Made by a program: the position numbers and the translations under genes. A stretch of 64,000 bases of DNA, from positions 62,001 through 126,000 of the forward strand of contig NZ_JACJKB010000003.1 in the NCBI RefSeq assembly GCF_016900375.1, written 5' to 3'. Source of the DNA: Collinsella tanakaei (lineage in GTDB: Bacteria; Actinomycetota; Coriobacteriia; Coriobacteriales; Coriobacteriaceae). Under the pieces are notes generated by a model. That model was not told the origin of the DNA, did no database searches, and worked only from the letters and a program-made list of their open reading frames with translations. Shown in pieces: positions 57,524-59,253 of this stretch (position 1 is the first letter of the stretch; each line of letters begins with the position of its first letter).

Positions 57524-57679
57524 CGTTCTTCCTTTCGGTAGTGCTCAAACTACAAATGGAATGTATCTACTCGCCCAGCCGCAGGCGTGAATAACTGATG
57601 GCTGGCCTCGCCTCATGCAAACGCGATCGTAAGGCTGAGCGGACCTTGCGATCGACGATGTGCACTATGCGAACTGTCG

Positions 57680-57907
57680 CTACTTGTAGCGATAGGTGAT
57701 GCGACCACGAGTCAGATCGTAGGGGGAAAGCTCCACCACGACCTTGTCACCCGGGAGAATACGGATATAGTTCATGCGGATCTTGCCCGAGATGGAGCAC
57801 AGAACCGAATGACCGTTCTCGAGCTCGACGCGGAACATGGCGTTCGGGAGCGGCTCAGTGACCGTACCCTCGAGTTCGATAGCATCTTCCTTCTTCAAAG
57901 CAATCAT
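57680..57907 (-). CDS. infA: Translation initiation factor IF-1
   Basis: 75-residue OB-fold factor; [22 protein letters not shown] and [18 protein letters not shown] are diagnostic. It starts ATG ATT with a weak site (AGAAAG). Its upstream leader runs through the 557-base gap to map, which contains two related hairpin elements. Confidence 0.96.
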
Positions 57908-58007
57908 CTTTCTCTAGAAAACGACAGCAACTGAGAATGATAACAAAAAGCTTAACAACAGGGTCAGATTCGTAATGGCTCCACAATTGGTGGGGTGACT
58001 GGGCGGA

Positions 58008-58090
58008 CCGGCGCATATATATCCCCCGTGCTCAAACAGTCCTCGGCCTGCGGCCTGCGGAACTACGCGCGGGGGATATATATGCGTCGG
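58008..58090. repeat. Structured element A
   Basis: A 20-bp stem (58008-58027 with 58071-58090, one G-T wobble) encloses a 43-base core beginning GTGCTCAAACAGTCCTCGG. The same core occurs, inverted, in element B with only two base differences over about 38 positions. Confidence 0.85.
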
Positions 58091-58356
58091 TTCGCCACAG
58101 CTCACCCTTTGTTGGGCTTTGCGAATGCGAGGCTGCCTTGCTTCGCCATTCTCAGCTGCGGCAGCCGTTTTACTCTCGGGCGGGGGACCCAGTCGATACG
58201 TTAACCTCTCCCCTGCCTGCACCTTCTTGACAACTGTTGGGTAAGGAGGAGTGCATGCTTTAGCATGTGCCAGCGTCAGGGAGCGGCGCTGTTAAGCGCC
58301 CGACCTGACGCTGCAGCTCGCTTTGCGTTGACGCGCGGGCGCATACCTTTGCAGCA

Positions 58357-58440
58357 GGACCCCCGGTATATCCTTACGGCGCAGTTCCGCAGGCCGTAGG
58401 CCGAGGACTGTTTGAGCACGGAAGGATATACGGGGGGTCC
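58357..58440. repeat. Structured element B
   Basis: A 19-bp stem (58357-58375 with 58422-58440, one mismatch) encloses the same core as element A, on the opposite strand. Stem sequences of A and B differ, yet both are self-complementary, as expected for a structure kept by compensatory change. Confidence 0.85.
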
Positions 58441-58464
58441 CAGTAGACCTATGGGAATAGACAG

Positions 58465-59253
58465 CTAGAGCTGACCGCCCTGCATGGAGCACCAGGGTCC
58501 CATCTCATCGACGGTCAGAATCACGGGGCCGTCTTCAGTGATGGCGATGGTGTTCTCGTAGTGGGCGGCGGCCAGATGGTCGTTTGTCGTGACGACCCAG
58601 CCGTCGGCACCCGTGGTCACGTGGTTCGTGCCGAGCGTGATCATCGGCTCGATGGCGATGACCATGCCGGCCTGGAGACGCACGCCGCGGCCCTTCTTGC
58701 CGTAGTTCGGCACGTTCGGGTCCTCGTGCATCACGCGGCCGACGCCGTGGCCGACGTAATCGCGCAGCACGCCGTAGCCATGGCCCTCGGCGAGGGTCTG
58801 GATGGCATGGCCGATGTCGCCCAGGTGGTTGCCGGGCACAGCCTGCTCGATACCGACCTTGAGGCAGTCGCGCGTTACCTCGCACAGCGCCTGCACGTCG
58901 GCGGAAGGCGTGCCGCAATAGAAGGTCCAGGCGTTATCGCCCACCCAGCCGTCGACGATCGCGCCGGTGTCGACCGACACGATATCGCCGTCGCGCAGGA
59001 TGACATCCGGGTTCGGGATGCCGTGGACGACCTGGTCGTTCACGCTCGCGCAGATGGTTCCCGGGAAGCCGGCGTACCCCTTGAACGCGGGGATGCCGCC
59101 GTGCATGCGGATGATCTGCTCGGCGAGCTGGTCGAGCTCGAAGGTCGACACGCCGGGGCGCACCATGGCCCCAACGCGGCGGAGCGCCATCTTAGACAGC
59201 GCTCCAGCCTTCTTCATCTGCTCGATTTCTTCTGCAGACTTGATCTTGATCAT
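58465..59253 (-). CDS. map: Methionine aminopeptidase, type I
   Basis: 262 aa metalloenzyme that removes the initiator methionine. Metal ligands fit DTGAIVDGWVGDNAWTF (two Asp), GHGVGRVMHE (His) and the two glutamates in IAIEPM and TEDGP. Its ATG overlaps the adk stop by 4 bases (ATGA). Confidence 0.96.
   Translation of the reverse strand: MIKIKSAEEIEQMKKAGALSKMALRRVGAMVRPGVSTFELDQLAEQIIRMHGGIPAFKGYAGFPGTICASVNDQVVHGIPNPDVILRDGDIVSVDTGAIVDGWVGDNAWTFYCGTPSADVQALCEVTRDCLKVGIEQAVPGNHLGDIGHAIQTLAEGHGYGVLRDYVGHGVGRVMHEDPNVPNYGKKGRGVRLQAGMVIAIEPMITLGTNHVTTGADGWVVTTNDHLAAAHYENTIAITEDGPVILTVDEMGPWCSMQGGQL

Follow-up and report, generated by a model that had tools for sequence, protein, structure and literature searches.

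BIMEs are mosaic palindromic units of enterobacteria that lie between genes and in which inverted units are arranged around a central motif. In attC sites, which lie beside integrase-driven cassettes, the conserved boxes are at the ends and the centre is variable. The REP sequences of the GTAG and CGTC superfamilies (PMC3733652) and the REPINs (PMC3116915) are interspersed, intergenic palindromes with stems of 5-13 bp and a small loop; their stem is conserved, an unpaired tag stands at one end, inverted doublets are frequent, and the GTAG type adjoins RAYT genes. The REP survey names no Actinobacteria (PMC3733652).

The hairpin family described here is previously unnamed and resembles REP repeats, but it has a different build. 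It was encountered in a window of 64,000 nucleotides from Collinsella tanakaei, in which a first-pass annotation had noticed two elements in opposite orientation within the 557-base gap between infA and map; orientation and gap were both borne out. The identities of rpsM, infA, map, adk and secY in the window are backed by Pfam. The downstream neighbor is infA, encoding IF-1 (57680..57907, minus strand; PF01176, E 1.5e-29), and the upstream neighbor is map, encoding methionine aminopeptidase (58465..59253, minus strand; PF00557, E 3.7e-52), beyond which lie adk and secY. Element A, on the plus strand, extends over 57993..58107 as a whole palindrome after gapped extension, with 30-nt arms at 58002-58031 and 58067-58096 and a core at 58028..58069 (GTGC-TCAAA bulge-CAGTCC-TCG hairpin CTGC-GGAACTA-CGCG). 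Element B (58357..58440, minus strand) starts ~25 bases past the map stop codon and contains the same core, inverted (58378..58419), between arms at 58357-58378 and 58419-58440. The two cores are alike over the stretch of about 38 bases originally compared, with two differences, G/A and A/G, and the arms contrast as reported, with CCCCC/GGGGG in A vs. CCTTCC/TAAGG in B. The stems had been put at 19-20 bp; the arms are indeed complementary in both elements according to a repeat search (90% over 30 nt in A, 91% over 22 nt in B), but those of A are longer than was assumed. Likewise, the position given, upstream of infA, is correct for A, whereas B sits directly behind map. The folds of A and B, each on both strands, were better than those of 200/200 shuffled sequences (z -5.3 to -10.4), and a covariance model, R1, built on 25 copies, matched A at 58013-58082 (73.1 bits) and B at 58366-58434 (60.6 bits). 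The right foot of B reads CC|TGC and bears a CTGC tag (see below); A has no right-foot tag.

The infA-map gap of five species contains orthologous copies with the core kept and the arms wholly changed yet matching, and in other Collinsella species the gap is short and empty. In two species, it is occupied by inserts of ~1.2 kb that seem to contain small genes and have no hairpin elements (L238, L243). The segment inside the convergent pair A/B (58108..58356, unstranded) contains two more hairpins at ~58253-58315. These are also seen at L227-L230, L233 and L236, covary in six species with double changes in 13/26 pairs, have a CTCCTCC end on the minus strand and found no match in Rfam. The placement in the ribosomal cluster had been called unusual; it is one among many such sites and not special to that cluster.

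In the family at large, a fixed asymmetric core, CTCAAACAGTCCTCG-hairpin-CTGCGGAACT, of 26-58 nt sits on top of a long helix with a median arm length of 29 bp. The arm helix leads to a five-base bulge, TCAAA (with TCGGA and TCAGA as variants), which faces one base; then follow an inner helix, in which CAGTCC pairs with GGAACTG with one A bulged, and an apical hairpin, which is free in sequence and either short or ~30 nt long. A second core type reads CCCAGTCG-CTCAAACAGTCC...GGAACTCGCTTTGTGGG. Three copies in the window's own genome (L408, L409, L410) constitute a sub-family without the TCAAA bulge, with GCGCGCGTCCTCG-hairpin-CTGCGGGATTGCGCGC between matching arms. A minority of copies carries short tags at the feet. 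Among 154 copies with independent flanks, TGTCC was present at the left foot (TGTCC|G...) of 14 and at the mirrored place of none, whilst CT[AG]C was present at the right foot (...C|TRC) of 32, against 4 in the mirrored place and 4-7 in control windows. Read on the opposite strand, this right-foot tag is 5'-GYAG, ahead of the stem.

From fold stability and the asymmetry of the near-core mismatches, we infer that the folding strand is the one opposite to the core as written. This strand folds better in 131 vs. 31 of 164 copies, by a median difference of 4 kcal/mol, and among core-proximal mismatches A.C, which corresponds to G.T/G.U on the opposite strand, outnumbers G.T by 88:12 (119 arm clusters), an asymmetry that is absent from the distal arm mismatches (33:31). 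Mismatches were counted on arm clusters because related copies inflate raw counts. Alternatively, the near-core asymmetry could reflect a constraint imposed by binding of double-stranded DNA.

The view that a conserved core with covarying stems represents a folded nucleic acid is supported across copies. When copies with distinct left arms were picked by core sequence alone, the arms matched in 103/128, compared with 0.9% for partners from other copies, a match having to exceed the 99th percentile of the scores obtained when arms were paired across different copies. Within the genome G107, the copies have identical cores and unrelated arms; in Lachnospiraceae and Hydrogenedentota, copies in one genome have the whole unit in common. 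In an alignment filtered for pairing (A2), the covariation score was 0.417 vs. 0.102 when shuffled (0/500) and 0.07-0.13 when slid, and double changes were found in 11/16 arm pairs, mostly with all four Watson-Crick types. Several other counts also rest on copies pre-filtered for matching arms and cannot prove arm matching, since the filter already demands it. The further step from covariation to selection on the fold is incomplete, because inverted repeats undergo template switching, which needs no selection to homogenize arms and to invert spacers (PMC8604942, PMC8794818); compatible signs, i.e., a flipped core and chimaeric arms, are seen (see below).

Further copies are plentiful, and Collinsella is full of them. 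Of the two outcomes named beforehand as refuting the idea, a lack of copies elsewhere and arms that do not pair, neither was observed. A 13-base core word is present in 13/45 Collinsella genomes, and all intergenic-looking copies fold with long arms. A gapped core pattern, of which the reversed control gave no match, was found in 56/298 genomes of the class, and R1 detected the element in 42/45 genomes of Collinsella. The window's own genome gave 9 R1 matches at E<=0.01, six of them at E<=0.001; of four other copies inspected there, one is canonical and three belong to the TCAAA-less sub-family. Among 246 genomes of the phylum, 15 were positive with R1, 14 of which were from the window's class. 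Copies were found in Collinsella, Enorma, Ellagibacter, Atopobiaceae and Eggerthellaceae, and copies with arms also in assemblies of Hydrogenedentota, Omnitrophota, Lachnospiraceae and Dormibacterota, several of these genomes containing 4-24 copies; multi-copy sets were seen in Lachnospiraceae, Omnitrophota and Hydrogenedentota. Collinsella and its class commonly carry the family, which is sporadic in other bacterial phyla; it comprises at least 200 distinct copies, and the copy number is patchy, ranging from 0 to 50 per genome. Rfam contained nothing relevant at E<=1 for the window region or at E<=10 for 20 loci. Similarity searches with the core in phage and plasmid records gave no match, nor was a relevant match obtained when the core sequence was sought in published papers. 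Carriage by phages or plasmids was considered and rejected; the 17 pattern matches in viral contigs lack arms and look like chance.

Some of the copies in distant phyla have features of their own. In the Hydrogenedentota assembly (L070, L071, L074, L104, L130, L139, L165, L477-L482), a T-run follows the stem of the repeat unit, and several copies have a recurring word like CGAGAATYGCTG on either side. In Lachnospiraceae (L458, L459, L466-L476), copies lie within short stems, e.g., GAAGCGGG/CCCGCTTC, some of which are followed by T-runs; they look as if inserted in terminator loops. A Myxococcota assembly (L142 / L464) has a core-like sequence in tandem repeats, CTCAAACAGTCCTCGCC...GCGGAACTCGGACATCGAATTATCCAA, from which the usual arms are absent.

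Besides many single copies, pairs at most 600 bp apart occur, of which 36 are convergent, 3 tandem and none divergent; the convergent ones represent at least 14 independent loci, the remainder being orthologues. Thus, the inverted doublet is found as a unit, as in REPINs, and the doublets surround one or more additional hairpins. By approximate counts from simple ORF calls, copies are near their upstream neighbor in 70 cases and far in 25, as compared with 25 near and 58 far for the downstream neighbor, and 45/70 are co-oriented with the near upstream neighbor. Beyond orthologous loci, no neighbor gene recurred among 187 loci, and no transposase was found adjoining. Orientation relative to replication was not significantly biased (66 vs. 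46, p 0.07), and a trend suspected from a single genome was not borne out.

Orthologous sites reveal how the element evolves. At one site in 24 close relatives, behind a gene that is 92-100% identical, several arm alleles exist that have their outermost bases in common; a single copy has been flipped (L336), and three others have chimaeric arms that do not match. At a doublet locus compared in 23 relatives, G001 and G004 have the entire doublet in inverted orientation, and G001, G005 and G032 each have one element with one chimaeric arm. Copies in different genera behind the same stop codon (L308, L315, L316) are orthologous and have wholly changed arms. In L285, a complete element lies inside the apical loop of another, of which both the core halves and the arms are intact, and the orthologues L311 and L313 are nested similarly. 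Target duplications of 3-6 bases were found at chance level and longer ones in 1-2 matches only, and no empty/filled pair was found among closely related sites. All genomes compared within the Collinsella aerofaciens-like group carry the element at the same loci. That orthologous sites keep their copies points to either a function or slow loss.

Taken together, A and B seem, by a slight preponderance of the evidence, to be copies of a palindromic DNA element that is non-autonomous and REP/BIME-like. This element was probably once mobile, and selection and/or template switching probably maintain the match between its arms. In favor of this explanation, we counted the arm matching in copies chosen by core, the covariation, the absence of a common neighbor gene, the convergent doublets, the strand asymmetry, the G107 copies with one core on unrelated arms and the Lachnospiraceae units inside terminator-like stems; counted against it were the lack of observed movement and of a mobilizing enzyme, the restriction of the tags to a minority of copies and the possible dsDNA-binding constraint. 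A mobile origin is supported by the patchy copy number, the nested and tandem copies, the spread over phyla and the tagged feet, yet it is undemonstrated, because no movement was found between close relatives. In the proposed mechanism, the folding strand, 5'-GYAG-arm-AGTTCCGCAG...CGAGGACTGTTTGAG-arm-GGACA-3', would act as single-stranded DNA (or RNA). An enzyme acting in trans would have recognized the folded strand by its core and tag and moved the element, possibly with a preference for hairpin loops as targets. Once inserted, copies would be inherited, their arms staying matched because mismatches would be selected against or overwritten through template switching, whilst recombination between strains could shuffle arm alleles via the common core. 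A more specific version is doubtful: a new class of mobile DNA whose insertion targets are hairpin loops, including those of its own copies, and in which the core and the GYAG/TGTCC feet constitute the element, the arms are largely accumulated targets and the mobilizing enzyme is not a RAYT.

The structured RNA suggested as an option in the first-pass annotation is possible, although we consider it rather unlikely. The element would then lie in the 3' untranslated region of the upstream gene, as a hairpin by which the transcript is ended, protected or processed, with a protein binding the conserved internal loops. The closeness of copies to their upstream neighbor, with 45 of the 70 near copies co-oriented, the fixed internal loops amid helices of free sequence, and the orthologous copies behind the same stop codon across genera with changed arms, as at L308, L315, L316 and infA-map, all fit such a role. 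However, the strand expected in transcripts is the less stable one and its mismatches next to the core are A.C, not G.U, the co-orientation is partial (45 vs. 25 of the near copies), and, besides the failure to match Rfam, a T-run (U-tract) follows the stem in only 9/207 copies. Intrinsic transcription terminators with a decorative core are a very improbable reading, in spite of the position of copies behind genes and the Hydrogenedentota and some Lachnospiraceae copies in stems followed by T-runs: the 9/207 refers to other copies than these, and no terminator was predicted across 57600-58800.

Largely neutral palindromes, i.e., relics whose arms are kept complementary by replication template switching without any selection on the fold, would account for the arms changing faster than the flanks at the def-linked locus and for the flipped core of one relative (L336) and the chimaeric arms of others, and the mechanism is documented in the literature cited above. 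They would leave the invariant core, the tags, the orientation of the doublets and the spread to new sites and phyla unexplained, which makes this an improbable explanation; template switching is more plausibly a process that the element undergoes than an explanation of it. The inversion of the whole doublet in G001 and G004 and the flip of a single element in G022 might recall a site for a site-specific recombinase, either an inverton or an attC-like cassette site, but no recombinase gene was found beside the copies and the arms are variable where a fixed crossover site would be expected. The att-like interpretation fails on layout as well, with a conserved centre and variable ends here (alignments A1 and A2), the reverse of attC, and a recombinase site of either sort is highly unlikely.

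The REP/BIME-like reading raises the question of a RAYT partner. None of 20 Y1_Tnp loci had an element nearby at E<=0.1. Y1_Tnp was found in 37/56 element-bearing genomes vs. 105/242 others (Fisher p 0.003, uncorrected for phylogeny) and is absent from 19/56 element-bearing ones. With such weak co-occurrence and no adjacency, and with a different repeat at the Collinsella RAYT loci, RAYT was rejected as the partner. That other, palindromic repeat, GGGAAAATRGGGAC/GTCCCYATTTTCCC, is present near Y1_Tnp genes of Collinsella (L445 1000-1030, 1900-1946, 2625-2655; L232) and probably belongs to those genes.

Compared with known systems, the element shares several characteristics with REP sequences and REPINs (PMC3733652, PMC3116915): it is interspersed, intergenic and palindromic, has in a minority of copies (32/154) an asymmetric tag at one foot, which is GYAG-like here, forms frequent inverted doublets, shows compensatory stem changes and sometimes sits within larger palindromes. 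The earlier comparison with REP elements therefore stands as far as the many intergenic copies, the convergent doublets and the tagged feet are concerned. Membership of a described REP family is not supported, because the stems are too long (~29 bp), the arms are unrelated between copies and RAYT linkage fails. In addition, conservation falls on an asymmetric internal core instead of the stem, and the tags in doublets face inward (TT type), whereas the HH type predominates in REP/REPIN. Like BIMEs, the element forms intergenic sets of palindromic units inverted about a central motif, but it differs in sequence, core and tags, and the central motif is another hairpin. It is small, non-coding, multi-copy and devoid of a gene of its own like MITEs, but lacks their target duplication and constant terminal inverted repeats, with the exception of a TIR-like CCTGCCCCTAAA in one Atopobiaceae lineage. 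Palindromic candidate structured RNAs from the human microbiome are likewise conserved palindromic structures, and some are not terminators; the main text of that study names no such Collinsella element (PMC8040213). A class of bacteria common in the human gut thereby gains an undescribed repeat family, the surveys compared reporting none there. Since series of close relatives have matched, chimaeric and flipped versions of the element at a single locus, the speed at which palindromes are repaired in nature can be measured directly. Moreover, a conserved core that sits on any pair of matching arms separates selection on the fold from the mechanical copying of arms, two processes that are mixed in studies of REP.
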